This document shows, piece after piece, positions 3,858 to 62,789 of a stretch of 64,000 nt of DNA (the first letter of the stretch is position 1; each line of letters begins with the position of its first letter). The stretch is from the NCBI GenBank assembly GCA_903919715.1, contig CAIXJC010000011.1, positions 62,001 through 126,000 of the forward strand, read 5' to 3'. Below the pieces are notes generated by a model. The model was given only the letters and a program-made list of their open reading frames with translations. It ran no database searches and had not been told where the DNA came from. A program made the position numbers and the translations under genes. Source of the stretch: an uncultured bacterium. GTDB lineage: Bacteria; Planctomycetota; Phycisphaerae; Phycisphaerales; SM1A02.

Positions 3858-5243
3858 TCATGTGACTGCGACGGCGCGGCGCTCCCGCATGGCATCACGA
3901 ATCGGGCTGAAGAAAACAATTCCAAGAACCGCTGCTGCAATCGACAACAGTACGGCGCTCAGCGCAACCATCACGAGTGATGTCGACGATCCAAGTTCAG
4001 CGCCGTGCTCAATTGGAGGTTCAATCAGCGGGTAGTAGTCAGTGAACTTCGGTTCAGGTCGCACCGCTGGTACAGCACGAGCGATGAACTCGACTGCTTG
4101 GTGGATTGGGCTGAACATAAAGAGACGCAAACTCGGTTCACGTGCCGTCAGATTCTCAAAGAGCAGACGCGATTCATAATTTGCCTCGCCGACACCATCG
4201 CCATCACGGTCATAGCCGGGATAATCGCTCCAAAAATTTCCGCGCTCATCGCGATCAAATTCATTTCCCGTCAATTCGCCACGGCCCAAGATGGCAATCT
4301 GCTCAAAGTTGTCTATAAAACTGTTTGACCACAAATGATTGCCCTTCACCGCGGGCAAAAATTCGACGCCAGTATCGTTGGCTGAAAAGGTATTTTCTGT
4401 GATTCGACCTGAATCTGGGGTTGCGAAGGGAGAACCATCGATGTAAATCCCCACGCAATTCCCAACGAAAATATTGCCTTGGACCAGAAAGTCATCCGTC
4501 TCCTTGAGACCGAGTCCATATCCACTTGGACCTCGATTGCGCAGCATTCGATTTCCAATCAGCTTCAACTTTGAGCTGTACATCAGATAGACGCCAACCG
4601 AATTGTCGAAGAGGTCATTCTTTTCGATCGTGACGCCGTTGGAAAACATCAAGTGAAATCCATAACGGCCGTCATGGGACCTATTATTTCGCACGATCAC
4701 ATCGGTCGAATACCAAAGAATTGCGTCCCGGCCATTATGAATCTCGTTGTCCTCGACGATGGTTCGATCTGCGCGCCACAAGCGAAGTCCATCGCCGCGG
4801 CGGGCAACATCAAGCACCTTTCCTCCAATGTGGTTTCCTCTGATGACTGAATCTGGAGACTCTTTCAAATCGATTCCAAACAGCACATCATCGAGAATAT
4901 TGTCCACGATCGTCACTCGAGCCGCATTCACTCTGATTGCGCAATTTTCCTTATCGAGATCGATCCCAGTTCCGCAAATTCGAAATCCTCGAATCTCAAC
5001 GTCCGGCGCGGTGACCGTGATGATGTCGCCGTTGCCGCCGCCATCGAGTGTCGGCCGTCCGACTCCAATCAACTTCAGCGGCTTATCAATCTGAATTTCT
5101 CCGCGATAGACACCTGCTGGCACCAAGACCGTATCCCCCGCCTTTGCCGCAGAAATGAGCTGAGAAATATCCAGGCTTCCGAAGACCACCTGTGGCCAAC
5201 ACGTCAGTCCGATCGCTGCGATGATGATGCCGCCGTATCTCAT
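3858..5243 (-). CDS. nosD: NosD-like periplasmic copper-cluster maturation protein
   Basis: About 461 residues: a signal peptide (MRYGGIIIAAIGLTCW), then a long parallel beta-helix made of CASH/PbH1 repeats (NGVTIEKNDLFDNSVGVYL is a typical turn), then a single hydrophobic segment near the C-terminus (SLVMVALSAVLLSIAAA) followed by a basic tail. This is the NosD layout; NosD works with NosFY in CuZ assembly. The start at 5243 was chosen because an ACGAG-type ribosome site precedes it and it lies 4 bases past the stop of the upstream gene; the longer ORF would run into that gene. The C-terminal membrane anchor is an addition not present in all NosD proteins. Confidence 0.88.
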   Translation of the reverse strand: MRYGGIIIAAIGLTCWPQVVFGSLDISQLISAAKAGDTVLVPAGVYRGEIQIDKPLKLIGVGRPTLDGGGNGDIITVTAPDVEIRGFRICGTGIDLDKENCAIRVNAARVTIVDNILDDVLFGIDLKESPDSVIRGNHIGGKVLDVARRGDGLRLWRADRTIVEDNEIHNGRDAILWYSTDVIVRNNRSHDGRYGFHLMFSNGVTIEKNDLFDNSVGVYLMYSSKLKLIGNRMLRNRGPSGYGLGLKETDDFLVQGNIFVGNCVGIYIDGSPFATPDSGRITENTFSANDTGVEFLPAVKGNHLWSNSFIDNFEQIAILGRGELTGNEFDRDERGNFWSDYPGYDRDGDGVGEANYESRLLFENLTAREPSLRLFMFSPIHQAVEFIARAVPAVRPEPKFTDYYPLIEPPIEHGAELGSSTSLVMVALSAVLLSIAAAVLGIVFFSPIRDAMRERRAVAVT

Positions 5244-5247
5244 CTCG

Positions 5248-5916
5248 TTAAATCGATGCTTTCTCTGCAAGCATTCGATCGTAAAGTGGCTTATAAGCAC
5301 GCCGATGGAAGAAGAGCGCCGATGCAGTCAAGAGTGAACTTGCGCACGCCAGATACCAACCAGTACCCGCACTCGCGATCGTGCGAAACTGCCCGATGTT
5401 GCCGATGCCGAGCGCCGGCGGCACAAAGGGTTTGACACTCGACGAGAGAGGCGCCGTCGGATCAAGATTATGCCCGTGCGAGTAAAGCCAATACTGCAAG
5501 TCCACAAGAAAACCCAGCGGAAAGAGAAGCGCAGGAAGGACCAACAACAAGGCCCATCGACTATGAACAAGTGCTGCACCCTCAACGAGAAAGAGCATTG
5601 CGATCACCATCCAAACGCCCATGGCGCGCTCAAGCGATGCCGCATCGTTCAGCTTGCGCATACCGATGTAATGATTTAATCCATCGATCTCGCGGACATC
5701 GCCAACGAGTTGATTCACGTACGCCGTCAATTCAAGCCCTTCTGGATACTGCGGCGCCTCAAGCGTCATATGCCAGTACGGCAGGAAAACTGAAACGACC
5801 AATGCAATGCGCGCCAACGACAACATCAAGGGCGGAAGCGAATAACGCATTCGATCTGCACGGACAAACTCTGGCGATACACGAGGTCCAAACACTCTTG
5901 AAAGAAAAGGTGACAT
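5248..5916 (-). CDS. nosB: NosB-like polytopic membrane protein of clade II nos clusters
   Basis: About 222 residues with roughly four or five membrane helices (SLARIALVVSVFL; VWMVIAMLFLVEGAALV; WALLLVLPALLFPLGFLV; YLACASSLLTASALFF) and an extracytoplasmic loop containing LDLQYWLYSHGHNLDP. Clade II clusters such as that of Wolinella carry a membrane protein of unknown function, NosB, directly between nosZ and nosD, exactly where this gene sits. The identification rests mainly on position and topology. The ATG at 5916 has GGAG 7 bases upstream and is preferred over the ATG at 5949. Its stop lies only 4 bases before nosD. Confidence 0.65.
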   Translation of the reverse strand: MSPFLSRVFGPRVSPEFVRADRMRYSLPPLMLSLARIALVVSVFLPYWHMTLEAPQYPEGLELTAYVNQLVGDVREIDGLNHYIGMRKLNDAASLERAMGVWMVIAMLFLVEGAALVHSRWALLLVLPALLFPLGFLVDLQYWLYSHGHNLDPTAPLSSSVKPFVPPALGIGNIGQFRTIASAGTGWYLACASSLLTASALFFHRRAYKPLYDRMLAEKASI

Positions 5917-5997
5917 TCTGTCTCCAATAAAAGAACGAAACAAAGGCAAATTGAAATGCCTGCGTGGAGTTTTCGCTCCACGCAGGCGATTGCGAAC

Positions 5998-8103
5998 TCA
6001 ATGAACGGCAGGCTTCACGCGGAAGTATCCGACCATTTCCAAATGCAGCGCAGAACAGAATTCTGTGCAGTAATAGGGATAGACACCAGCCTTGTTGGCA
6101 ACGAAGTGGAATGTTGCTGCTTCACCTGGTTCAAGACTGAGATTGATGTTGTAACCACCAATGCAGAATCCGTGCGTTGCGTCCATCGTGCGTTCCATAC
6201 TCGTGATGTGCCATGTCACGTTGTCGCCTTCGTTGACTTCAACATTCTCTGGGAAGTAGTGGCTACGAACCGCTGTCATATAGACCTCCACATTCTTTCC
6301 ATCACGCACCACCTTCTCTTGACCTGGCTTTGGAGCCTTTGGATCAATCGCCTGCGTCTGAGGATCCCATCCGATTTCCGGATAGATAGTCCACGGATGC
6401 AATTTGTCCGCCTTGATCATCTGGCAATAGTGTGGCTCGCCAACACCGATCGGACTGTCATAAATGACGGGCATCGCTGTCCCACCCTGCTCGATATCGA
6501 GAAGTTGGAAATTCTGTGCGAGGAGTGGTCCCGTTGGAAAGAAGCGATCAATCGCCCACTTATTCATTGCAATCAGATACTTCCCATCGGGCGAAACTGT
6601 GTCACCCTCGGCAGCACAGAGATGCCCGATGTTGTATTGAACGGGCGTCTTCGATACCAATTTCCAAGGTTGTTCTGGGTGAAGCGAAGAATATTCGCCA
6701 CCAAGAGTCCACCGCGAAACTGCAGAATCGAGGAAGAGCGATGTATACGCATATCCCTTGTCATCGAACTGGGTGTGTAATGGGCCAAGTCCGAGTTCAA
6801 CCTGCGCTTCCATTACTGCATCAAAGTCAAGAATCGGGATTCCGTAAGAATCCTTGGACGAAAACTTTTTCTCAGCAATCGCCTTCTTGATTTTCTCGGT
6901 CGAATAAACAGTCACATGCGGATCAAGTTTGCCAGCGATCACGACATACTGACCGTTTGGAGTGACATCTACACCGTGAGGGCTCTTTGGTTCTGGCGCA
7001 AAGAAGAGAATCCCTTCGGCGATCAGCGTCTCGATCTTAATGACTGGAAAACCATTGACCTTCTCGAACTTGCCTGCATTGAAAGCAGCTTCCGCTTTCT
7101 TTGTGTCGATGATGTGGAGATAGTCCATATCACGCTGCGTCGTTCCTGCTTCAAACGGTGGCTTGTTCAATTCGATCCCGCCTGTTGCAAGTTCGCTGTT
7201 GAACGAATTTCCAAAAATCAAACCATCGCTTGCCAGTTTTCCGGCATCGAAAAGATCCTGCCAATACGGCGGAAGTTCCAGCGCAAATGACTTCGACATG
7301 TCGATGCGTCCCTTCGCGCGGTCAAACTTCCAGTATGTCACCATTCCGCGGTACGACTTCTGATACTCATCGCTTGTCGCATACGCATTGCCGAACGGCA
7401 CTGCGTATTGACCGCCTTCGATGACATAATCCGTATTGGGTGTCACGAAGGCTGCACCGTGATCACTCATGGTGATCGGGTTCTTGACGATCTGCTTTGT
7501 TTCAAAGTCGCGGAGATCGATGACCGCAAGTCGTGCATTGGCTTTATCGCCGATGAATAGAAATTCGCCGTCATAATCACCCTTTGTCTCGCTGAGAGCT
7601 GGATGGTGTGTATCGCCCCAACGAAGTTCTTGATTTGGGATATCTCCTTCTTTCAGCACGTCGTTGCCAACGCCATATCCATACCCCTGCCATGGCTCGG
7701 GCGTGAAGACAGCAATGCTGCGTAGAAGTCGCATCGACGGAACGCCGATCACAAAGACCTGACCGCTATGACCACCTGATGCGAACATGATGTATTCGTC
7801 ATGACGTCCACTTGGCTGAAATGTTTTCGCAGCGGCCATCAAATCGTCTGGAGTTAGTTTTCGATCATTGGCGAGTTTTTGAAGTTGCGCCATATTCTCG
7901 GGTGTGAACTCGACGGCTTTCTCTTCCTTCGCTGCGCCAATCTTCTTCTTTTTCTTTCCCCCATCGGTTGGCGGTGCCTGCGGCGCAGCCATCGCCGACC
8001 GTGCGATACCGACTCCGATCACCGGAAGTGGTGCGCCAACTGCGACCAACATCGCCAGCGGTAGCGCGAATGCGAGAGAAAATTTCGACTGATTCGTTTT
8101 CAT
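5998..8103 (-). CDS. nosZ: Nitrous-oxide reductase NosZ, clade II (Sec-type)
   Basis: A 701-residue copper enzyme reducing N2O to N2 in the periplasm. The N-terminal seven-bladed propeller carries the histidine contexts expected for CuZ: GDTHHP, SDHG, SPHGVD, GLGPLHT and GEPHY. The C-terminal cupredoxin domain carries the CuA motif CTEFCSALHLEM. The signal peptide (MKTNQSKFSLAFALPLAMLV) lacks a twin-arginine motif, so export should be through Sec, a mark of clade II (atypical) NosZ. A GAGGAAG ribosome site precedes the ATG at 8103. Between the signal and the propeller there is a lysine-rich stretch (GGKKKKKIG) that looks like a flexible linker. It is cotranscribed with the cytochrome gene upstream and the maturation genes downstream. 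Confidence 0.97.
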   Translation of the reverse strand: MKTNQSKFSLAFALPLAMLVAVGAPLPVIGVGIARSAMAAPQAPPTDGGKKKKKIGAAKEEKAVEFTPENMAQLQKLANDRKLTPDDLMAAAKTFQPSGRHDEYIMFASGGHSGQVFVIGVPSMRLLRSIAVFTPEPWQGYGYGVGNDVLKEGDIPNQELRWGDTHHPALSETKGDYDGEFLFIGDKANARLAVIDLRDFETKQIVKNPITMSDHGAAFVTPNTDYVIEGGQYAVPFGNAYATSDEYQKSYRGMVTYWKFDRAKGRIDMSKSFALELPPYWQDLFDAGKLASDGLIFGNSFNSELATGGIELNKPPFEAGTTQRDMDYLHIIDTKKAEAAFNAGKFEKVNGFPVIKIETLIAEGILFFAPEPKSPHGVDVTPNGQYVVIAGKLDPHVTVYSTEKIKKAIAEKKFSSKDSYGIPILDFDAVMEAQVELGLGPLHTQFDDKGYAYTSLFLDSAVSRWTLGGEYSSLHPEQPWKLVSKTPVQYNIGHLCAAEGDTVSPDGKYLIAMNKWAIDRFFPTGPLLAQNFQLLDIEQGGTAMPVIYDSPIGVGEPHYCQMIKADKLHPWTIYPEIGWDPQTQAIDPKAPKPGQEKVVRDGKNVEVYMTAVRSHYFPENVEVNEGDNVTWHITSMERTMDATHGFCIGGYNINLSLEPGEAATFHFVANKAGVYPYYCTEFCSALHLEMVGYFRVKPAVH

Positions 8104-8168
8104 GATGCTTCCTCTAAATGAGTGCGCCAGCATTTCTCCGACATCGGAGAGCGCTTGCGAACGGGTTG

Positions 8169-9137
8169 TTATGGTGATTTCCTGTCACGTTCCTGCATGT
8201 AGCGCAGGTACGCAATAATTGATCCGAGACCTTCTTCGTTGAGCGACGGATTTCCGCCCTTGGGCGGCATATCCACCTTCGTTGTATTAGCGGGATCGCT
8301 CGATGGGCGACCACTCTTTAAAAATGCAAGCATTTTTTCATCATCAGTTGCCAAAATGAACGGGCTCTTGACGAGATCCTTGCCGAGCTTGACGATTCCC
8401 CGCGCATCTGCGCCGTGGCATGAAACGCATGAGGCGAGAAACAACTTCTGCCCAGTGCGAATCGACTCTGCGTCATAATCCGACTCTTCGATTCCAGGCA
8501 ACGATGCCATCGGTCCAGTCGGCAGCGCCGCTGGCAAGACGAGAGCCTTGGGAGCTGGCAATACTGCAGGAATTCTCCGCGGATCTTGGAGCCCGCGCAG
8601 GTAGCACGAGATTTGACCGATGTGTTCGTCGGTGAAGGCGGCATTCCCTCCTCGTGGCGGCATAGGGACCTTGGTCGTATTGAGTGGATCCTCAACGCCT
8701 CGACCGCGCTTGATGAATTCGACCAACTGCAGATCAGACTGCTTCTTCACCCATCGGCTCATCACAAGATTCTTCCCAAAGTTCGGCACACCCATTCCAG
8801 TCAATCCGTGACACGCAGCGCAAGTCGCTACGAATAGTTGTTTGCCAACGACAAAGGTTGCGCCATCGAGTTCGGCCGCAGGAGCTTGATCAGCTCGAAA
8901 AAGTGATGGCAACTCACTGTCTGCATTCCATCCCCCTGTACGCGAGACTTGGGTCGCAACTGACACAAGTGACCCCCATGCCGTCACAGCAATCATCCCG
9001 ATGGTGGCGAACACTAGGACCAATATCAGCAGCGCACGTACTTCGCGTCCGCGTGGGTGTAGACCAATCAATCGAGACGGAGCGTCCAAAGATCCGCTCT
9101 GAGTATTTCCGTTATCGCTGGAATTGTTGTTTTTCAT
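8169..9137 (-). CDS. Membrane-anchored di-haem cytochrome c, first gene of the nos operon
   Basis: A 322-residue protein with one N-terminal membrane anchor (LLILVLVFATIGMIAVTAW, about residues 37-55) and two cytochrome c modules. The haem-binding motifs are CAACH (about residue 106) and CVSCH (about residue 235). Each module ends with a similar methionine-containing segment (TTKVPMPPRGGN and TTKVDMPPKGGN) that would supply the distal ligand, so the two halves look like an internal duplication. It lies about 65 bases upstream of nosZ on the same strand and is the likely electron donor to NosZ, as for the NosC cytochromes of clade II clusters. The palindromic operator and -10 box lie directly upstream of its start. 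Confidence 0.9.
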   Translation of the reverse strand: MKNNNSSDNGNTQSGSLDAPSRLIGLHPRGREVRALLILVLVFATIGMIAVTAWGSLVSVATQVSRTGGWNADSELPSLFRADQAPAAELDGATFVVGKQLFVATCAACHGLTGMGVPNFGKNLVMSRWVKKQSDLQLVEFIKRGRGVEDPLNTTKVPMPPRGGNAAFTDEHIGQISCYLRGLQDPRRIPAVLPAPKALVLPAALPTGPMASLPGIEESDYDAESIRTGQKLFLASCVSCHGADARGIVKLGKDLVKSPFILATDDEKMLAFLKSGRPSSDPANTTKVDMPPKGGNPSLNEEGLGSIIAYLRYMQERDRKSP

Positions 9138-9215: not shown

Positions 9216-9436
9216 ATTTAAGATAGATATTCGCCTGCCTGCAGAAACCTTAAAAGAGCGATTCTTGAGGGCGTACTCCACTTATCGGACGCACCAAGCC
9301 ATTGTCACTCTTGCAGAGCACCGCATGGGCATTCGAACCGCACACTCCATTCATTGCCTCGCAGTGAAGTCAATAGACTCAACGCCAACACGCCTGCTGC
9401 GTGCGTGTTCACTCTTACAGCGAGCCCTTTTTTCCA

Positions 9437-9868
9437 ATGCAACCCCTCCTGAAACTCACTGTTGCACGCTCCGGCGATCGCCACCAGCTCGTTACGACTG
9501 AGGCTCTTGAAATGGGGACGAACATTCTGCGATTCGTCGGCGACATTCGTGCAACACCCGGCCGCTACTCCGTTCAAATTGGATCACGCGAGCATCTCCA
9601 TCCCCCTGACAGCTTGGCTGACGAACCTCATGAGCAGCGCGATCCTCGATTCATCTGGCGATTCTTAGATCACTCATGCAAGCCGAATGCAAAGGTCGTT
9701 GAGCAAAGTCTTGTTGCCCTCCGATTGATTCAAGTCGGCGAAGTGCTGACCTTTGATTACAACTTGACGGAAGAAGATATGGCGACCCCCTTTCGCTGTG
9801 AATGCGGATACTGCGGCGGTCGCATGATCCGCGGATTCAAGCACCGTCAACATCCATCCGCGATCTGA
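9437..9868 (+). CDS. SET-domain protein (protein-lysine methyltransferase-like)
   Basis: A 143-residue cytosolic protein covering a minimal SET fold with a post-SET tail. It shows FLDHSCKPNAKV (the conserved N/D-HSCxPN motif, about residues 84-95), GEVLTFDYN (the second SET motif with the catalytic tyrosine), and CECGYCGG near the end, which resembles the zinc-binding post-SET CxCG...C motif. SET enzymes transfer methyl groups from S-adenosylmethionine to lysine side chains. The ATG at 9437 is chosen over a GTG at 9401. It ends 26 bases before the Pls-like synthetase on the same strand, so the two are probably cotranscribed. The substrate is unknown; a lysine-rich product of the neighbouring enzyme is an attractive inference. 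Confidence 0.8.
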   Translation: MQPLLKLTVARSGDRHQLVTTEALEMGTNILRFVGDIRATPGRYSVQIGSREHLHPPDSLADEPHEQRDPRFIWRFLDHSCKPNAKVVEQSLVALRLIQVGEVLTFDYNLTEEDMATPFRCECGYCGGRMIRGFKHRQHPSAI

Positions 9869-9894
9869 ACAAGCGGCCTACTGAGACCACGATC

Positions 9895-12800
9895 ATGTTG
9901 CTGCTCCCTGAGATTTTTGACAAGAATGTCATCGCGAATCCGCAAGGAATTGCAATCGATATTCCGCCTGGTCGTGGGCGTCCCTCCCGCCGAACAATCA
10001 CATATTCCCAGCTTCATGCTGCGAGTTGCGCGATCTCCAATGCAATCGCCGAGTCTGCCAACGTCGCTTCGGATTCAATCGTCGCAATTCTGCTGCCTCG
10101 GGATACGGAGGCCTTGTATGCCGCCCAACTTGGCGTACTCAACCTCGGCGCCGCATTCACTTGTCTCGACCGCGCCTTTCCAGATGAACATATTCGTGCA
10201 GTATTAACTGACGCAGATGCGCCAGCTGTTGTGACCGACGCTGTTGGATTCGCACGCCTTCAATCAATCGGAATTGCTCAAGGAAGAGCCGTGATTAATG
10301 TTGATTTGCTTACGAGTTCGACATCGGTGACGATTTCACCACGTCGATGCGATCCTCATTCGCTGGCGTATGTCATCTATACATCTGGAACCACTGGCAC
10401 GCCCAAGGGTGTCATGATCGAACATCGCAGCATTGCGAATCTGGTCGAGTCCGACCTCGACAGATTTGGGCTTGGACCAGACGACCGCATTGCGCAATGT
10501 TCCTCGCCTGCATACGACTCATCGCTCGAAGAAACATGGCTTGCCTTTGCGGTCGGCGCAACGCTTGTTCTTCTCGATGACGAAACCGTTCGACTTGGAC
10601 CCGATCTTGTGCCGTGGCTGAATCACGAACGCATCACGGTCTTCTGCCCTCCGCCGACATTGCTTCGAACGACTGGATGCGAAGACCCAGCGCGCGCGCT
10701 GCCTTTGTTAAAACTGATTTATGTCGGTGGCGAAGCGTTGCCTCAGGATCTTGCAGACCTTTGGAGCGCAGGGCGACGGTTCGAGAATGGGTATGGTCCA
10801 ACCGAATGCACCGTCACAGTCGTTCGCACTCGGATTTATCCTGGCGTCGCAGTCACAATCGGTCGACCTGTTGAAGGCCACACCGTACGCATTGTCGACG
10901 AGGCGTTGTGCGAGGTTGCGAGTGGATGTGAAGGCGAACTCTGTATCAGCGGCATCGGACTTGCACGGGGCTATCGCAACCGCCCACAGACCACTGCTAA
11001 AAAGTTCATTGATCATCCGCAATTCGGTCGCATCTACCGGACGGGCGATCTGACTCGGCTCACGCCAAGTGGAGACATTGAATATCTCGGTCGCATCGAT
11101 GGGCAAATCAAACTTCGTGGGTATCGAGTGGAACTCGCAGCAATCGACGCGGTACTCAGCCAGTGTGCGGGTGTCCGCGAAGCTGCATGTTGCGTGCAAG
11201 GTCAGGGCGCTGCGCAGATCATCGTTGCTCATGTCGTTGCGCTCGTTGCCGGCGAGCAACCGACGAATAGTGCGCTGCGTGCTGCACTGACATTGGCGCT
11301 TCCGATCTACATGGTCCCTTCAAAGTTCGTGGCGATCAGCGTCGTGCCACGAACGGTTGGCGGCAAGATCGACCGATCCAAACTGCCAGTCATCGAAAGC
11401 ACTGACGATCGAACCGAGCCCATCCGCCCCGCTCGAAATATCGTTGAACGAGCGATCGCCGATGCATTCGCTCACGCGCTTCATCACGGTGGCGAGATAT
11501 CAATCGACGATGATTTTTTTATGACACTCGGCGGCGATTCATTGAGCGCCGTCGGCGCGATCTGCGCCCTTCGTACAAATCCCCAGACCGCTCGTCTGAC
11601 CGTACGAGACCTCTATGAGCTCCGAACTCCCGAGCGATTGGCTGAAAAACTCGGGACAACAACCAACTTGCCTGAATCCACGCGCACGCCTCGAACACGC
11701 ATTGGCCGACGTGCGAATGATCCGACCGCCGCTTCGATCATCCAAGCGCTCCTCTTGATCGTGCTGGTCGTCGCTTCCGGTGCGAGTGGCTATTTCGTAC
11801 TCCTACGAATCGCGCCATCAATCGTCGAAGTACTTGGCATTGGCTGGTCCGTTGCACTTGCACCGTTCGTTGCCTGCGGTTCGATCGTGCTGTTCACGAT
11901 GTTCTCAATCCTGTTCACTGTTGTTACAAAGCGACTTCTCGTAGGGCGTATTCGTGCGGGATCGTTCCCTGTCTTCAGTGCGGCCTACTTGCGTCACTGG
12001 ATCGTCCAACAGGTCGCACAAATGATTCCTTGGGGCTTGATCGAAGGAACTGTCGTCCTCAACGGAGTCTTGCGATTGCTCGGCGCAAAGATTGGAAGAC
12101 GAGTGCACATTCACCGAGGAGTTGACCTTCGCCGAGGCGGATGGGATTTGATAACGATTGGCGACGATGTCACCCTTGCACAAGAGGCAACCATCACTGT
12201 CATCGAGCTGTGCGATGGGCAATTTGTTTTAGCGCCAGTCACGATTGGCGACCAGTGCACCATTGATGTTCGAGCTGGTATCGGACAACACGCACAGATG
12301 GGTGCGGGATCATCTCTTGCACCGCTCTCATGGCTGAATGACGGCGAACGAATTCCAGCTGGCGAACGCTGGGATGGCGTTCCAGCCACCAAAGCTGGAA
12401 TGACTGTGGCGCCATCCAAGTTCATTCGTGGGCGCGGAATTGACCCACTCGTTCACGGCTTCATGATGATTGCCTCCCGCCTCGCACTTGGAGTGATCGC
12501 ATCGATCCCATGGATGTTTCTGGCATGGTTCGTATTTCCAAAGTGGGATCTAGCGCAAGCGCCGATTGTCGCAGTCGCAATCATCATTGCATCACCGCTC
12601 TGTGTTGTGGCCGCACTCGCATCTCAAGCACTCAGCCTGCGCCTGCTCGGGCGCACGCAACCTGGATGTATCAATCGCTGGAGCATTCAATACATTTCCA
12701 TCTGGGCGAAGTCACAAGCGGTCGAATCCGCCGGACGTTGGCTGAGCGGAACGCTCTTCTGGCCCGCATGGCTGCGACTCGCTGGCATGAAAATCGGAAA

Positions 12801-13848
12801 GGGATGCGAAATCTCGACGATCATCGATGTTGTTCCAGACATTGTGACGATCGGCGACACGTGCTTCTTTGCAGACGGCATCTATTTCGCATCACCGCGC
12901 GTCGATCGCAATGTGGTTTTCATCGGCGAGACTTCGATCGGCGATAACACATTCATTGGAAATCATGCAGTTATCTCGGCAGGATTTGCATATTCGCGAG
13001 ACTTTTTCGTCGGCGTCAGTACCGTCGCGAATGCATCGATTGCACAACCAGACACCGCATGGTTCGGTCATCCCCCGATGCAACTTCCTCGAAGAGATGT
13101 CGTTGTTGCCGATCGCAATTTGACGCATGAGCCAGGATTCATTCGGTATACAAACCGACTCTTTTGGGAATCACTGCGATTCGCATTGCCGATTTTCCCG
13201 CTGATGATTGGCATCCTGTGGTGGACCATTCTGAACAACTCAGCCGAAAGCTTTTCGACACTCGTTACAGTTTTCGTCGTCGCACCGATTGCAACGCTTG
13301 GCGTTGCGCTCACGATGACCACGACGATCATCTTGTTGAAATGGATACTTCTTGGACGCGTCCGACCAGGCCAACACGCGCTCTGGAGTTGCTGGTGCAG
13401 CCGCTGGGATTTCCTCTTCGTTGCATGGGGCTTTTATGCGCGCGGGACTCTCGACCGACTTGATGGAACGATTTTCCTGACCTGGTTCTTGCGGCTTATC
13501 GGAGTTGGCATCGGAAAACGCGTCGTTCTCGGCAGAGGATTCACCCAAGTCGTCGATCCAGACATGCTCTCATTCGGTGATGATGCCACCGTCGACTGCA
13601 ACTTTCAAGCGCACAGTTTCGAAGACCGCATCCTGAAGATCGACCTCGTTCGAGTTGGACCAGGCGCAACTCTGGGACATCATGCAGTCCTTTTTTATGG
13701 CAGCGAAATAGGTGCTGGCGCACTCGTCACCGCACACAGCGTGATCATGAAAAACGAGCGAATTGAAGCTGATTCAGTCTACTCTGGATGTCCAGCGGTT
13801 CGATCCGATTCGCACCACGCTCCCCAAGCATCTCGCAGCGCGCCGTGA
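9895..13848 (+). CDS. Pls/PosA-like non-ribosomal peptide synthetase (A-T-membrane domain)
   Basis: 1,317 residues. An adenylation domain spans about 1-500, with YTSGTTGTPKG (A3), NGYGPTE (A5), YRTGDL (A7), GQIKLRGYRVEL (A8) and GGKIDRSKL (A10). A carrier domain has the phosphopantetheine serine in LGGDSLSAVG (about residue 548). From about 617 onward three pairs of membrane helices alternate with three soluble domains rich in left-handed-beta-helix hexapeptides (IGKGCEISTIIDVV, IGDNTFIGNHAVI). There is no condensation or thioesterase domain. This is the layout of epsilon-poly-L-lysine synthetase and of the NRPS terminal domain family. Aligning the A4-A5 region by eye gives D, S and E at pocket positions 235, 236 and 239; the acidic residue at 239 fits a basic amino acid, but this is a hand alignment. 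Start at 9895 (ATG), 26 bases after the SET gene. The 3' end overlaps the convergent glycosyltransferase gene by 70 bases. Confidence 0.88.
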   Translation: MLLLPEIFDKNVIANPQGIAIDIPPGRGRPSRRTITYSQLHAASCAISNAIAESANVASDSIVAILLPRDTEALYAAQLGVLNLGAAFTCLDRAFPDEHIRAVLTDADAPAVVTDAVGFARLQSIGIAQGRAVINVDLLTSSTSVTISPRRCDPHSLAYVIYTSGTTGTPKGVMIEHRSIANLVESDLDRFGLGPDDRIAQCSSPAYDSSLEETWLAFAVGATLVLLDDETVRLGPDLVPWLNHERITVFCPPPTLLRTTGCEDPARALPLLKLIYVGGEALPQDLADLWSAGRRFENGYGPTECTVTVVRTRIYPGVAVTIGRPVEGHTVRIVDEALCEVASGCEGELCISGIGLARGYRNRPQTTAKKFIDHPQFGRIYRTGDLTRLTPSGDIEYLGRIDGQIKLRGYRVELAAIDAVLSQCAGVREAACCVQGQGAAQIIVAHVVALVAGEQPTNSALRAALTLALPIYMVPSKFVAISVVPRTVGGKIDRSKLPVIESTDDRTEPIRPARNIVERAIADAFAHALHHGGEISIDDDFFMTLGGDSLSAVGAICALRTNPQTARLTVRDLYELRTPERLAEKLGTTTNLPESTRTPRTRIGRRANDPTAASIIQALLLIVLVVASGASGYFVLLRIAPSIVEVLGIGWSVALAPFVACGSIVLFTMFSILFTVVTKRLLVGRIRAGSFPVFSAAYLRHWIVQQVAQMIPWGLIEGTVVLNGVLRLLGAKIGRRVHIHRGVDLRRGGWDLITIGDDVTLAQEATITVIELCDGQFVLAPVTIGDQCTIDVRAGIGQHAQMGAGSSLAPLSWLNDGERIPAGERWDGVPATKAGMTVAPSKFIRGRGIDPLVHGFMMIASRLALGVIASIPWMFLAWFVFPKWDLAQAPIVAVAIIIASPLCVVAALASQALSLRLLGRTQPGCINRWSIQYISIWAKSQAVESAGRWLSGTLFWPAWLRLAGMKIGKGCEISTIIDVVPDIVTIGDTCFFADGIYFASPRVDRNVVFIGETSIGDNTFIGNHAVISAGFAYSRDFFVGVSTVANASIAQPDTAWFGHPPMQLPRRDVVVADRNLTHEPGFIRYTNRLFWESLRFALPIFPLMIGILWWTILNNSAESFSTLVTVFVVAPIATLGVALTMTTTIILLKWILLGRVRPGQHALWSCWCSRWDFLFVAWGFYARGTLDRLDGTIFLTWFLRLIGVGIGKRVVLGRGFTQVVDPDMLSFGDDATVDCNFQAHSFEDRILKIDLVRVGPGATLGHHAVLFYGSEIGAGALVTAHSVIMKNERIEADSVYSGCPAVRSDSHHAPQASRSAP

Positions 13849-15545
13849 AACCGAGCGGCGTACGCAACCTGATCGCAGAGCACGGACTCACGCAAATCAT
13901 TACGAAGCCCAGTGCGAAGCGATTCAAGGCGCGCACGATCTGTTGCAATCCCCGCAGCAATTGTGGCGAATTCTTCAGGTGTATTTGCAATCCACTCCTC
14001 GTGACCTACAGCGCTAAGGAGGCTCGCACCAACTCGCGCCGAATGGCGATCACCAGCAAGAGCGACCACTGGCACACCCATCCACATTGCTTCGCAGGTG
14101 GTCGTCGTCCCGTTGTATGGCATGGTGTCGAGCGCAACATGCACACGTGAATAAAGACTCCAGTGATCATGCAAACTCGCCGTATAAGCGACGATATCAA
14201 CCCGATCGCTTGAAACACCCGCCGCTTCAAGCCGCGTCAAGAACAACTGTCGAATTCCCGGATCTGCGATCGACTTGCTCTTCAAGAGAAGTCGTGAATT
14301 GGGAACCGATTGAAGTGCTAAGGACCAAAGCGCCATCGTGCGAGATGTGATCTTGGTCGCTAAGTTGAATGAACCGAATGTGATCGGCTGATCAATTGCC
14401 GGCATCGCCGAATCTGGCGCATCTTTCGGTGGTACATAGCACAGGAAACATGGATCTATTCGCAGGAGTCGCTCAGTGCAGAGTGTGTCGCTCCCAGGAA
14501 CATCAGTAATCGAATCAACAATGCGCCATCCGACTGCAGGATGTCCCGTCGTATTGGGATAACCAATTGCCGACACAATCACTGGCGCAGGCGCACTATC
14601 AAGCGCTGGCAATCGCCCGCCAGACGAATGCCCGCCCAGCTCAATCAGCACATCGATCTTGCGAGAACGAATTGCCTCATCAAGCGGCTGATCCTTCATC
14701 GAAAAAGATTCAACCCATTCATCAGCAGTCGCCATCAATCGTGTCCGCATTTCATCGCCCACTCTGGGAGGATCCGTTGCGAAGACGGTCAATCTGCAAC
14801 CTTCTGGCCGATGACGCATAAAAGGCTCGGCAAAATACGCAACGGAATGCGTGCGCATATCGCCCGACAGAATCCCCAACCGCAGAGGGCGATTGGGCGA
14901 AGGATCTGTTCGAGCAGGAGGCGCACTACTTCGAACGCACTGCGCATATGCGCGGTGCGCCTGCGCCACGATCTCCGCTGCGTAATCTGGATAATTCAGA
15001 CCAAACAATGCGTTCGATCGAAGTCCAGCATTGAGAGGATCGTGCTGCAACGCTCGTTGAAACTCTTCGGATGATTCTTCCACGCGACCAGAATCCCTCA
15101 GCACGCTGCCGAGATTGCGCGAAAGCTCAGGCCAATTTGGTCGCAGCGCAAGACCGCGCCGCCCCGCTTCGATTCCGCCAAGCGAATCTCCGATTTCTGC
15201 GCATGCCAGAACAAGCCCCATATACGCACGCGAATAAGATGGGTCAATTTCAATTGCCTTTCGAAGTTGCTCGACTGCATCAACAGGTCGACGAGCAGTC
15301 ATCAACGCATTCGCATAGTTATTGCGATATTGCGGTACGCGCGGCGCTGCTGCCACGGCCCGACCGAGATGGTGAATGGCCTGCGCTATTTCTCCAGCCT
15401 GCAGCAGCAACAGCCCAAAGATCTGCGCAGCATCTAAATCTTGAGGCTTCCGCTTGATCAATATTCGCAGTGATGCCAACGCCGCATCGAGACGTCCTTC
15501 TTGCGCATCTTTCAGTGCCCGTTCAAGCGTTGTATCGGAAGCCAT
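13779..15545 (-). CDS. TPR protein with GT41 (OGT/SPINDLY-like) glycosyltransferase domain
   Basis: 588 residues. About 190 N-terminal residues form TPR repeats (DAAQIFGLLLLQAGEIAQAI; NYANALMTARRPVDAVEQL), followed by a bacterial GT41 catalytic region. Family signatures include RLGILSGDMRTHSVAYF, SAIGYPNTTG, the KITSRTMALWSLAL...SRLLLK segment and YNGTTTTCEAMWMGVPVV, then AGDRHSARVGAS for nucleotide-sugar binding. Such enzymes transfer sugars, often GlcNAc, to proteins in the cytoplasm. No signal peptide. It converges on the synthetase gene and the last 70 bases of both overlap. The acceptor is unknown. Confidence 0.9.
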   Translation of the reverse strand: MASDTTLERALKDAQEGRLDAALASLRILIKRKPQDLDAAQIFGLLLLQAGEIAQAIHHLGRAVAAAPRVPQYRNNYANALMTARRPVDAVEQLRKAIEIDPSYSRAYMGLVLACAEIGDSLGGIEAGRRGLALRPNWPELSRNLGSVLRDSGRVEESSEEFQRALQHDPLNAGLRSNALFGLNYPDYAAEIVAQAHRAYAQCVRSSAPPARTDPSPNRPLRLGILSGDMRTHSVAYFAEPFMRHRPEGCRLTVFATDPPRVGDEMRTRLMATADEWVESFSMKDQPLDEAIRSRKIDVLIELGGHSSGGRLPALDSAPAPVIVSAIGYPNTTGHPAVGWRIVDSITDVPGSDTLCTERLLRIDPCFLCYVPPKDAPDSAMPAIDQPITFGSFNLATKITSRTMALWSLALQSVPNSRLLLKSKSIADPGIRQLFLTRLEAAGVSSDRVDIVAYTASLHDHWSLYSRVHVALDTMPYNGTTTTCEAMWMGVPVVALAGDRHSARVGASLLSAVGHEEWIANTPEEFATIAAGIATDRARLESLRTGLRNDLRESVLCDQVAYAARFHGALRDAWGAWCESDRTAGHPE

Positions 15546-15636
15546 TCGGCCATCCTAGTTTGATTATTCCCAACTCGATAACGCTCGGCTCCAAAATACC
15601 AATTTGATTATGGATTCGACGAAGTGCGCCCCTGAC

Positions 15637-16299
15637 CTACTGAAGTCGCGCAAGGATTTTTGCGCCAGCCGTCTGTGACAGCGTGACGGATTTTCCTCCA
15701 CGCACTCGCAGCGTGATCGAATCGCCCTGCGGGCTGACTGCATCCACCGTGACACGCACCCCAGGCTTCAAACCACTTTGAGCGACGAACTTCAGAAATG
15801 CGTGATCTTGGTCGATGATTCGTGCGATTTCAACCTTTGCGCCCCGTGCGAAAGATGAAAGCGCCTTCCCACGCAACTCCGAAACCTTGCCCGCCGCATT
15901 TGGAATTGGATCGCCATGCGGATCCGTTGAAGGCCTTCCAAGAAACTCGTCCAAACGGTCCAATGTCCGTGGCGATAGCGCATGCTCGAGTCGCTCCGCT
16001 TCTTCATGGACATCAGCCCAGTCCAAGTTGAGAGTCGACACCAGAAATGTTTCAATAATGCGGTGGCGACGAAGCACATCCAGCGCGACCTTCTTTCCAA
16101 TTGCCGTCAGTGTGACACCGCTGTACCTCGGCGCTTTCACTAACTTCAACTTCGCGAGCCTTTTGATCATGCTCGTCGCTGTGCCCTTTGTCACCCCGAC
16201 TTCCTGCGCGAGACGAACTACGCCCGCTTCGCCAGCAGTCGACTCGCGACAGAGCACATAAATCGCCTTGATGTAATTCTCTGCGGTCTCCGTTGCCAT
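15637..16299 (-). CDS. mntR: DtxR/MntR-family metal-dependent transcriptional regulator
   Basis: 220 residues with the DtxR layout: an N-terminal winged helix (residues 1-65; GVTKGTATSMIKRLAKLKLV is the recognition region), a metal-binding dimerisation helix region (LDVLRRHRIIETFLV, HEEAERLEHALSP), and a C-terminal FeoA-like SH3 domain (GAKVEIARIIDQDHAFLKFV ... GDSITLRVRGGKSVTLS). Proteins of this form repress metal uptake when Mn(II) or Fe(II) is bound. It is divergent from the Nramp transporter gene with two palindromes in between, so manganese-responsive control of mntH and possible autoregulation are likely. The FeoA-like tail is found in IdeR-type members, so iron sensing cannot be excluded. 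Confidence 0.88.
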   Translation of the reverse strand: MATETAENYIKAIYVLCRESTAGEAGVVRLAQEVGVTKGTATSMIKRLAKLKLVKAPRYSGVTLTAIGKKVALDVLRRHRIIETFLVSTLNLDWADVHEEAERLEHALSPRTLDRLDEFLGRPSTDPHGDPIPNAAGKVSELRGKALSSFARGAKVEIARIIDQDHAFLKFVAQSGLKPGVRVTVDAVSPQGDSITLRVRGGKSVTLSQTAGAKILARLQ

Positions 16300-16338
16300 C
16301 GAACCTTCATCCTAGCGAACTATTCATCTCATTCAGTG

Positions 16339-16359
16339 TTTGAATGCCTAACATTCAAA
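16339..16359. promoter_or_regulatory. Palindrome 1 in the mntR-mntH intergenic region
   Basis: Perfect 8-bp inverted repeat: TTTGAATG (16339-16346), spacer CCTAA, CATTCAAA (16352-16359). Size and symmetry fit a DtxR/MntR-family operator. It shares its last two bases with the next palindrome. Confidence 0.65.
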
Positions 16360-16379
16360 AGTTTGATGGCTCAAACTTT
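16358..16379. promoter_or_regulatory. Palindrome 2 in the mntR-mntH intergenic region
   Basis: Perfect 9-bp inverted repeat: AAAGTTTGA (16358-16366), spacer TGGC, TCAAACTTT (16371-16379), ending about 36 bases before the mntH ATG. Together with palindrome 1 it could bind two regulator dimers on adjacent sites and control both divergent genes. Confidence 0.65.
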
Positions 16380-16415
16380 ATTGGTAGGCTTGCTTCGCAC
16401 TCGTAGACCTTTGAT

Positions 16416-17762
16416 ATGAACCCTCCACCGAGTCCCACATCGCACGCTCCAGCCGCATGGCGAAAAGCTCGCGGAGCACCTTCGCTCGCCGAGGCGTACT
16501 CAACTGTTCATGTGCCGATGAATAAGGGACGATGGCAGAAACTGATGGCATTCAGCGGTCCCGGCTTGATGGTCGCTGTTGGATACATGGATCCTGGCAA
16601 CTGGGCGACCGACCTCGCGGGCGGTGCGCAATTTGGATATGCCCTGCTCTCTGTTGTGCTGATCTCCAACTTGACCGCGGTCCTGTTGCAGCACTTGGCC
16701 GTCAAACTCGGCGTGGTCGCAGAACGCGATTTAGCGCAAGCGTGCCGTGATCACTTCGGACGAACGACTTCATTCGTGCTCTGGGTCTTATGCGAAATCG
16801 CAATCACGGCATGCGATCTTGCGGAAGTCCTCGGATCGGCGATCGCTCTCAATCTGTTGTTTGGAATCCCACTCGTCTGGGGAGTCATCATCACGGCGGC
16901 GGATGTATTACTGATCTTGGTTCTACAAAATAAGGGATGGCGAGCCATCGAGACGATTGTGGCCGGACTTGTCTTTCTGATCGGCGGATGCTTTGCGTAT
17001 GAGATCATCGCGTCCCGCCCTGACATGCCAGACATGCTTCGCGGATTCATCCCGACGCCTGAAATCGTCGTCAGTCCGGGCATGCTTTATATCGCGATCG
17101 GCATCCTCGGTGCGACCGTCATGCCGCACAATCTCTATCTCCACTCTGCGATTGTCCAGACGCGCGATTATCCACGCGATGATTCGGGAAAGCGCATGGC
17201 CATTCGATATGCCACCGCCGATTCAAGCATCGCACTGCTCTTCGCATTCTTTATAAACGCTGCCATTTTAATCCTTGCCGCTGCGACCTTTCATCAGAGT
17301 GGCCACCAAGATGTCGCAGGAATCGAAGACGCTTACAAGTTGCTTTCTCCTGTACTTGGAGCATCACTTGCGAGCACTGTTTTTGCAGTCGCACTACTTG
17401 CCTCGGGGCAGAATTCAACTCTGACTGGAACGCTTGCTGGACAAGTGGTGATGGAAGGATTTATGAACTTTCAGTTGCGCCCATGGATGCGCCGATTGAT
17501 CACTCGGTTGATCGCAATTGTGCCAGCCGTGATCGTCGCTGCGATATTCGGCGCATCTGGCGTAAATAAGTTGCTGATCCTCAGTCAAGTCATCTTGTCA
17601 TTGCAACTCTCCTTTGCCGTCGTCCCACTTGTCTGTTTCACAAGCAGCAAGCCCAAAATGGGGCGATTCGTCAATGGACCATGGCTCACAGCGACGGCTT
17701 GGTTCGTAACAATCGCCATCATCCTTCTGAACGGGTTCTTGCTCTTTCAGATATTTCGGTGA
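16416..17762 (+). CDS. mntH: Nramp-family Mn(II)/divalent metal transporter
   Basis: 448 residues, eleven or so membrane helices. The Nramp metal-binding signature DPGNWATD in helix 1 (about residue 56) and the helix 6 motif GATVMPHNLYLHSA (about residue 232) are both intact, including the Asp, Asn and Met/His-region residues used for proton-coupled Mn(II) import. A further conserved segment, LASGQNSTLTGTLAGQVVMEGF, is also present. The N-terminal 50 residues are hydrophilic. Divergent from the mntR-like gene with palindromic operators just upstream, so uptake is probably repressed under metal sufficiency. Confidence 0.95.
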   Translation: MNPPPSPTSHAPAAWRKARGAPSLAEAYSTVHVPMNKGRWQKLMAFSGPGLMVAVGYMDPGNWATDLAGGAQFGYALLSVVLISNLTAVLLQHLAVKLGVVAERDLAQACRDHFGRTTSFVLWVLCEIAITACDLAEVLGSAIALNLLFGIPLVWGVIITAADVLLILVLQNKGWRAIETIVAGLVFLIGGCFAYEIIASRPDMPDMLRGFIPTPEIVVSPGMLYIAIGILGATVMPHNLYLHSAIVQTRDYPRDDSGKRMAIRYATADSSIALLFAFFINAAILILAAATFHQSGHQDVAGIEDAYKLLSPVLGASLASTVFAVALLASGQNSTLTGTLAGQVVMEGFMNFQLRPWMRRLITRLIAIVPAVIVAAIFGASGVNKLLILSQVILSLQLSFAVVPLVCFTSSKPKMGRFVNGPWLTATAWFVTIAIILLNGFLLFQIFR

Positions 17763-61805: not shown

Positions 61806-62789
61806 TCACCCGCCGCTTGCGTCCTTCACCTGAGGAGGCGCATCGAAATCCTTTCGGGGTGGTGGCTTTAGATAGTTATTCCCCGAATTTGGATTATTCC
61901 TATCAAAGGCAAACGCCTCGCGATTTCTTACGAAATCCTTCACGTATCGCGCTGGAATTGCGAACCCAAGCGATTCGCCTCCGCGGATTCCCATGTTCGT
62001 GATACCGATGACTTCGCCTCTTGTATTGAAGAGCGGCCCGCCAGAATTTCCTGGATTGATCGCCGTATCGGTCTGGATGTATGTCAAACCCTCAAAGTTG
62101 CGCGACGTCGTTGAGACCACACCTTGAGTCATCGTTCGTTCGAGACCAAGCGGATTGCCGATCGCAAAAACTGGCTGGCCGATTTCCAACCCATCTCGCA
62201 TAACCACGGGAGCGAAACTGAAGGACTTTCCCTCAGGATGCTTAATGTGGATCAAAGCGAGATCGATCTGATTGTTGACAGCCACCAATTCAACGTCTTC
62301 GATTTCCATTCGCTTGAGCGTTCCATCAGCCTGCGGCAGCCAGATCGTCGTTCGCAAATTGGTTTCGCCTTGAACGACGTGCGCATTCGTGATTGCGTAT
62401 CCCTCGGGACTGATGATCACGCCTGATCCAAGACCGGCGGGAGTCGATACTTTGATCACTGCTGGGCCGATGATCTTTGCATGCTCACGCGGCGAGAGTT
62501 CCGGCAAGTTCTCGGAAGTTGAAAAAAGGGAATCCTCTGTTCGTTTGATCTGCGAGACGCCCTCTGCATTCTGCACTTCGGCGACGTCCGTCATTTCGAA
62601 AACCAATACGTCAGGCCCCACATCAAGCCAGACGCGCCGGTCGCTTCGTTTGACCACATCACCTTCGATGCGCCGACCGCTCTTAAGAATGACGACATCT
62701 GCTGGTCCAGGGGCTTTGACATCGTCCGCAAACGTGAATGCCGAACACATCACGAGGGCTGCCAGGGTCATTGAAAGTTGGGTGGACAT
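61806..62789 (-). CDS. Secreted trypsin-like serine protease (S1C, DegP-like, no PDZ)
   Basis: About 327 residues from Met at 62789 with a signal peptide (LSMTLAALVMCSAFTFA). A small N-terminal SH3-like stretch (DVVILKSGRRIEGDVVKRSDRRVWLDVGPDVLVFEMTDVAEVQ) precedes the protease core: TNAHVV (His), DLALIHI (Asp), GNSGGPLFNTRGEVIG (Ser). The HtrA-type core is complete but no PDZ domain follows, only a Pro-rich tail. It likely degrades or senses proteins in the periplasm. The next gene downstream (secreted DUF3352-like) lies 35 bases on, so the two may share a transcript. Confidence 0.9.
   Translation of the reverse strand: MSTQLSMTLAALVMCSAFTFADDVKAPGPADVVILKSGRRIEGDVVKRSDRRVWLDVGPDVLVFEMTDVAEVQNAEGVSQIKRTEDSLFSTSENLPELSPREHAKIIGPAVIKVSTPAGLGSGVIISPEGYAITNAHVVQGETNLRTTIWLPQADGTLKRMEIEDVELVAVNNQIDLALIHIKHPEGKSFSFAPVVMRDGLEIGQPVFAIGNPLGLERTMTQGVVSTTSRNFEGLTYIQTDTAINPGNSGGPLFNTRGEVIGITNMGIRGGESLGFAIPARYVKDFVRNREAFAFDRNNPNSGNNYLKPPPRKDFDAPPQVKDASGG

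Follow-up and report, generated by a model that had tools for sequence, protein, structure and literature searches.

A small SET-fold protein is the genomic partner of a clade of Pls/PosA-like synthetases

Introduction

Epsilon-poly-L-lysine is a food preservative, and we know of no methylated member among the polymers of the Pls/PosA type. Here we describe a stretch of 64,000 nucleotides (hereafter the window; positions 62,001 to 126,000 of contig CAIXJC010000011.1, assembly GCA_903919715.1, from an uncultured planctomycete of the Phycisphaerales) in which a gene for a SET-domain protein precedes a gene for a synthetase resembling Pls, the epsilon-poly-L-lysine synthetase, and PosA, the delta-poly-L-ornithine synthetase. 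We show that one clade of such synthetases, whose pocket is largely fixed and of the cation type, has the SET-fold protein as its dedicated partner in the genome.

Pls and PosA share with this clade an adenylation (A) and a carrier (T) domain followed by helices and three beta-helix stretches, a Glu at position 3 of the pocket code and the lack of condensation (C) and thioesterase (TE) domains. In PosA this Glu holds the amine of the side chain, and chain length is limited by the second code residue, which is Phe in PDAP/PDAB, Met in PosA and Ala in Pls; polymers of this type are antimicrobial (PMC10522769). In the same paper a Bdellovibrionales A domain (OFZ39577.1, Bdello_A) with the code DSECYGGVTK has modest activity on L-Arg and none higher on four diamino acids; the A domain alone was assayed, and the substrate of its synthetase clade was left open (PMC10522769). 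The SET protein is a partner clue for this clade. On the methyltransferase side, the closest relative is BurB, a SET-fold methionine S-methyltransferase whose substrate is free methionine and whose pathway yields a building block for a secondary metabolite (PMC12542666).

We found no description of a SET and Pls-like pair among the open-access PMC papers listed by our searches. Searching that literature for the pocket code strings also returned nothing, which proves little, as PMC10522769 prints the code with spaces. The two-gene pairing is real, conserved and apparently undescribed.

Results and Discussion

The pair recurs in several phyla

The two genes lie on the same strand, SET first, with a gap of 26 bp:

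9437..9868, + strand: SET-domain methyltransferase gene (143 aa; Pfam, family alignment, structure model)
9895..13848, + strand: Pls/PosA-like synthetase gene (1317 aa; A, T, then a C-terminal helical and beta-helix block)
9985..11385, + strand: adenylation domain (residues about 31-497 of the synthetase)
11452..11646, + strand: carrier (T) domain (residues 520-584; Ser549 in GGDS)
11740..13845, + strand: C-terminal block (residues 616-1317; long-helix blocks alternating with three hexapeptide-type beta-helix stretches)

The coordinates agree with the initial annotation, which had described a SET gene 26 bases upstream of an A-T synthetase devoid of C and TE domains; the Pfam search found SET, AMP-binding, PP-binding and Hexapep domains in the pair, and neither C nor TE in the synthetase. 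The SET gene has an alternative earlier in-frame GTG at 9401.

A profile scan of the genome_contigs collection with the C-terminal alignment gave 238 relatives, the best 80 of which were fetched and examined; 72 of them include the whole synthetase start and reach at least 650 bp further upstream, and can be evaluated. In 27 of these 72, a SET of the same family directly precedes the synthetase in the same orientation. The initial annotation would have been undermined by an adjacency unique to this genome, and the pair instead recurs in at least four phyla (Planctomycetota, Verrucomicrobiota, Acidobacteriota and Actinomycetota, the last with Lentzea, Amycolatopsis, Kutzneria, Planosporangium, Actinocrispum and Pseudonocardia), with one further locus in a metagenome bin labelled Gammaproteobacteria. 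Two of the eight non-evaluable loci (L060, L084) have the SET too. Among the SET-bearing loci, the SET is a fragment in L091 and short in L054, while L044 and L045 are near-duplicates. In the verrucomicrobial L060 and L091 the frame of the synthetase or of the SET is split or partial, possibly by decay or assembly error. The genes are -1 to 97 bp apart in 32 of the 33 SET-bearing rows (the window and three further genomes included) and 338 bp apart in L081, as measured to an extrapolated synthetase start and, for L060, from a split frame.

Classic Pls/PosA paralogues provide a control. In 15 SET-bearing genomes the TIGR02353 matches separate by score, with 20 classic ones at 556-786 bits and 15 from this clade at 363-397. 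None of the 19 classic loci that were fetched, all from actinobacterial genomes carrying the pair, has a SET (best profile match E 0.55), against 27 of 72 in the clade (Fisher p = 5.7e-4, relatedness ignored). Co-occurrence within whole genomes points the same way. Among 150 Pseudonocardiaceae, the SET profile scores 219-237 bits in nine genomes and 62-99 in six others, and the synthetase profile 1076-1102 bits in nine and 338-391 in 15 others. The two sets of nine are the same genomes (p = 1.2e-14, again ignoring relatedness); five of them had been sampled before, and the four new ones alone give p = 6e-8. In all nine the SET precedes the C-terminal domain in the same orientation by 1.83-1.89 kb, the span that the A-T part takes up. 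Among 294 Planctomycetota (E <= 1e-15), an in-family SET occurs in seven genomes (171-214 bits), and another seven have distant SETs only (70-85). All seven of the former also carry the synthetase (p = 9.4e-12 without regard to relatedness, or 1.7e-9 when G173, which came to light only by its SET, is not reckoned among the synthetase-bearing genomes). The synthetase is adjacent in six of them, with the contigs of G199 and G173 ending inside it; in G054 the two genes are on different contigs. Four further genomes (G063, G096, G108, G160) have the synthetase and no SET. These genome searches scored few candidates per genome (3 and 12) and may have missed some. Since the in-family SET was never seen without a synthetase in the same genome in either sampled group, we call it a dedicated partner. 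SET-synthetase adjacency exceeds chance by a wide margin. The identities of the two proteins also covary (Mantel rho 0.55, 0/2000 permutations) over 28 loci, from which L043, L045, L054, L060, L084 and L091 were left out, and to this shared ancestry contributes.

The distribution of the SET is patchy, as expected of an optional tailoring gene. On a quick synthetase tree (SH-aLRT only) its presence requires 16 changes over 87 rows, a number inflated by contig ends and unlinked SETs. An in-family SET stands on a contig without synthetase in G054, G304 and G305 (L205, L206, L207); hence, the pair can be unlinked. No SET remnant was detected by tblastn (E <= 0.01) in 48 SET-less loci (the 45 evaluable ones plus L035, L039 and L041). 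Of 45 SET-less genomes searched, which excluded those of L055, L061, L065, L085 and L104, two (those of L063 and L064) hold an in-family SET on another contig, 16 have distant SETs only and 27 have none at E <= 0.001.

Neither a substitute nor a third partner emerged. Among the 25 commonest of 59 neighbour families (63 ORFs chosen by length from 32 of 51 SET-less loci), none is a replacement methyltransferase. In 11 actinobacterial loci from six genera, only the SET and the synthetase recur in the fetched flanks, the remaining recurrent clusters being overlapping reading frames inside these two genes; clustering the genes of all loci gave no other widespread partner among the clusters listed.

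The synthetase and its adenylation pocket

The initial annotation likened the C-terminal part of the synthetase to that of Pls, and the likeness holds. TIGR02353, which describes the Pls/PosA C-terminal domain, matches it end to end at 369.6 bits, under the curated cut-off of 423.1; clade members in 10 Planctomycetota genomes score 330-390 bits. Because the cut-off is missed, the synthetase is not filed under this family, despite its family-like architecture. An AlphaFold2 model of the C-terminal 702 residues (mean pLDDT 87.9, pTM 0.88) has three long-helix blocks (model residues 2-67, 236-302 and 467-538) alternating with three beta-helix-like stretches. The Asp and Glu expected of CHPA synthetases at code positions 1 and 3, with residue roles as described in PMC10522769, are D208 and E212. 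By model and profile, the window synthetase is of the Pls/PosA-like (CHPA) architecture, A-T plus a helix/beta-helix block, without C or TE domains. The clade departs from Pls and PosA in scoring below the TIGR02353 cut-off, in its SET-bearing loci and in its pocket, which begins DSEC, whereas the 17 classic loci with an A domain have DAES (11) or DFEY/DFEC (6).

One might speculate that the synthetase is no polymerase, and that it loads a single basic amino acid, which the beta-helix block passes to a lipid, a sugar or a small amine, with the SET methylating the amino acid. The nearest solved folds of the C-terminal block are hexapeptide acetyltransferases, although weakly so (best E 5e-4), and the sub-threshold TIGR02353 score and the absence of a further conserved gene near the actinobacterial loci fit this idea as well. 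But 83 clade sequences and the classic paralogues (17 for the A-T part, 19 otherwise) have in common 89 positions that are at least 95% fixed, among them the C-terminal Gln1238, His1240 and Asp1244, and PosA, of the same architecture, makes a polymer (PMC10522769). We consider a non-polymerase improbable. That the product is a polymer we infer from the architecture and these common C-terminal residues.

The pocket of the window synthetase consists of D208 S209 E212 C251 I275 V277 G299 V307 T308 K491. Pocket position 239, where an acidic residue had been noted as fitting a basic substrate, is indeed Glu212, which lines up with the Glu found in 17 classic paralogues of the Pls type. The pocket is not one of the known Lys/Orn codes. 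Its Ser at the second code position suggests a substrate of the size of Lys or larger. The pocket is readable in 84 of the 91 aligned rows (seven are not), and it reads DSEC[LIV]VGVTK in 67; six rows, of which L034 and L104 are one contig, differ at position 5 or 6 alone and eleven depart further. Wherever a SET-bearing row has a readable pocket (32 rows), the code is DSEC[LIVA]VGVTK; the eleven strong departures come without exception from SET-less rows. This link between pocket strictness and SET is a weak association, because many of the departing rows fall in one planctomycete clade.

Bdello_A appears to have an equivalent pocket. Three Bdellovibrionota rows (L096, L101 and L120) read YVGGE in the pocket region, and therefore the published Y and G appear to neighbour positions 5 and 6. 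Read one residue later at these two positions, DSECYGGVTK becomes the clade code, so that by alignment the codes appear equivalent for L096 and L120, with L101 one residue off. No SET was found beside the synthetase in these three loci; the L120 genome has a distant SET elsewhere (48 bits) and no closer one.

The SET protein and BurB

The window SET is recognised by Pfam (28.7 bits, cut-off 22.4), while none of the NCBIfam models matches it or the three relatives tried. Its structure model has a pLDDT of 87.1, and the best 50 fold matches listed are all SET structures. Fifteen residues are invariant in 30 of 30 family rows (G35 R43 Q47 H53 W74 H79 C81 F106 Y108 E112 P118 F119 C123 C126 G133), including the SET-core His79 and Tyr108 and the post-SET cysteines. 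At 143 aa, the protein has no room for the pre-SET region of histone-type lysine methyltransferases. A profile search of the PDB with the family finds BurB first (E 4e-17) and then a histone methyltransferase (3e-13). A fold search with the model also ranks BurB first (E 3.8e-10, TMq 0.72) ahead of histone enzymes (from 2.4e-7); among the 50 matches listed, TMq is 0.70-0.72 for BurB and 0.54-0.66 for the histone enzymes. The initial annotation had started from the premise that SET enzymes methylate lysine. Since the nearest relative is BurB rather than a histone lysine methyltransferase, this is not a safe step.

Like BurB, which is homologous to MSMT, the family has the minimal SET fold and the post-SET cysteines. 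Residue pairs hand-numbered on the profile alignment match Gln75, His81, His93, Tyr124 and Glu128 of BurB with Gln47, His53, His79, Tyr108 and Glu112 of the window SET. The acceptor site differs in that Ser88 is replaced by Trp74 and Met122 by Phe106, each in 30 of 30 rows, a difference that is suggestive only, as Ser88 and Tyr124 of BurB were found not to be catalytic (PMC12542666). Of the residues considered for S-adenosylmethionine use, His79 and Tyr108 are the invariant ones noted above, while position 78 is Asp in 3 of 30 rows, including the window, and otherwise usually Asn; BurB has Leu. The partners differ too, BurB working in the BurI/BurD/BurE route and the present protein standing beside a Pls-like synthetase. 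A second SET protein in the window genome (G000:C59, L043 3749-4273) scores 50 bits with the family profile and is of a different kind.

Most known SET enzymes methylate proteins, and the SET might regulate the synthetase, or another protein, by methylating it. That the SET is dispensable fits such a role. However, no lysine is found among the twelve best-separating columns listed from nine comparisons of SET-bearing and SET-less synthetases, and the protein is a minimal domain closest to a small-molecule enzyme; we hold this to be quite improbable.

What the pair may make

In the mechanism that we propose, the A domain would activate a long basic amino acid, Lys- or Arg-sized, with Glu212 holding the side-chain cation and Ser209 and Gly299 making room, and the T domain would carry it as a thioester. 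A cationic oligomer or polymer would arise as the C-terminal membrane/beta-helix block links the monomers by their side-chain or alpha amines. With S-adenosylmethionine as the donor, the SET would methylate a nitrogen of the monomer, most likely while this is carrier-bound or already in the product, at an aromatic active site formed by the invariant Trp74, Phe106 and Tyr108. We take position 106 to be the Phe/Tyr switch of histone SET enzymes, at which Phe presumably goes with higher methylation states; Phe would favour di- or trimethylation here. The outcome would be a cationic peptide that is N-methylated and might carry a permanent charge.

N-methylation of a long basic monomer or of its polymer is probably the task of the SET, although we infer substrate, product and order of steps. 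That the operon joins a dedicated SET tailoring enzyme to a Pls-like synthetase and methylates the basic monomer or its polymer seems to us evenly balanced between true and false. The pair may make the N-methylated cationic polymer of the initial annotation. More tentatively, we propose that N-methylated, perhaps permanently cationic, poly-amino-acids form a widespread class, as yet undescribed, for which the SET was recruited as a dedicated tailoring enzyme of a thiotemplate synthetase. If true, it would be an undescribed methylated cationic natural product from a minimal two-gene unit in several phyla, and the SET fold would gain a second role in natural products besides that of BurB. As named strains of Lentzea, Amycolatopsis, Kutzneria and Planosporangium carry the operon, the possible new polymer class is directly testable.

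The order of steps is disputable. The SET might act first, as BurB does, turning a free amino acid into a cationic onium form (S-methylmethionine, N-methylated lysine, trimethyllysine or methylarginine) that the A domain then activates. Methylation before activation is favoured by the kinship with BurB, the nearest solved relative by profile and by fold, which acts on free Met towards a secondary-metabolite building block (PMC12542666), and by the stricter pocket of the SET-bearing rows, since departures from the consensus in SET-less rows only are expected if the pocket pairs with a methylated substrate. Besides, the amino-acid-contacting segments of BurB (70-73 and 130-132) align with the strongly conserved R43-Q47 and T111-F119. 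Yet 36 of the 52 SET-less rows keep the DSEC[LIV]VGVTK of the SET-bearing ones, the acceptor-side residues of BurB differ as described, and no alignment column consistently separates SET-bearing from SET-less synthetases (the best does so in 5 of 9 hand-chosen comparisons). We therefore regard a SET acting first as unlikely, if more credible than the other alternatives. Because many SET-less synthetases have the same pocket, we place methylation after activation, with a modest edge over methylation of the free amino acid.

Several observations weigh against the mechanism that we propose. The SET is missing beside the synthetase in 45 of the 72 evaluable loci, and this, with the 36 SET-less rows of unchanged pocket, means that methylation is not essential to the synthetase. 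One of the strong pocket departures, the SET-less L105, lacks the pocket Glu altogether. BurB methylates sulfur rather than nitrogen. Bdello_A, whose pocket is apparently equivalent, favoured L-Arg, an amino acid without a simple side-chain amine for isopeptide growth (PMC10522769). Finally, the window SET has a C-terminus shorter than that of most relatives and Asp78 for the usual Asn, and of the seven other rows in the closest clade of the window synthetase, five (L046-L050) lack an adjoining SET.

These last points would also be expected if the adjacency were incidental or the window SET decaying. But the co-occurrence statistics speak otherwise, and the window SET differs from that of L045 by 12 synonymous and 7 non-synonymous codons (8 from that of L044). 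Incidental adjacency is unlikely for the SET family as a whole, and incidental adjacency or decay is, in our judgement, very improbable.

Neighbourhood of the window pair

The DNA of the window and of L044 is 91-99% identical from 1770, the start of the fetched stretch, to about 10140, a block covering nosZ, NosD, cytochrome c, the SET and some 80 codons of the synthetase 5' end. Past about 10140 the identity is for the most part 59-81%, rising to near 91% in a patch at about 10380-10770, and downstream of the synthetase it is mostly 71-74%. Hence, the block seems recently moved and the synthetase gene a mosaic, apparently by a recent horizontal exchange, judging from the identity pattern, that ended inside the synthetase gene.

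The minus strand of the window at 3858-9137 encodes NosZ, a nitrous-oxide reductase of the Sec type (TIGR04246, 829 bits), together with NosD and a protein bearing two cytochrome c domains. Among 91 loci only L044 has nosZ near the synthetase, so we do not count the nos genes as part of the system. At 13779-17762 follow a TPR and glycosyltransferase-41 protein, a regulator of the iron-dependent-repressor type and a multi-pass membrane protein that by eye resembles an Nramp-type transporter. In the SET-less L046 a symporter homologue adjoins the synthetase. The window genome has a single PF01648 match, which may be only the housekeeping AcpS.
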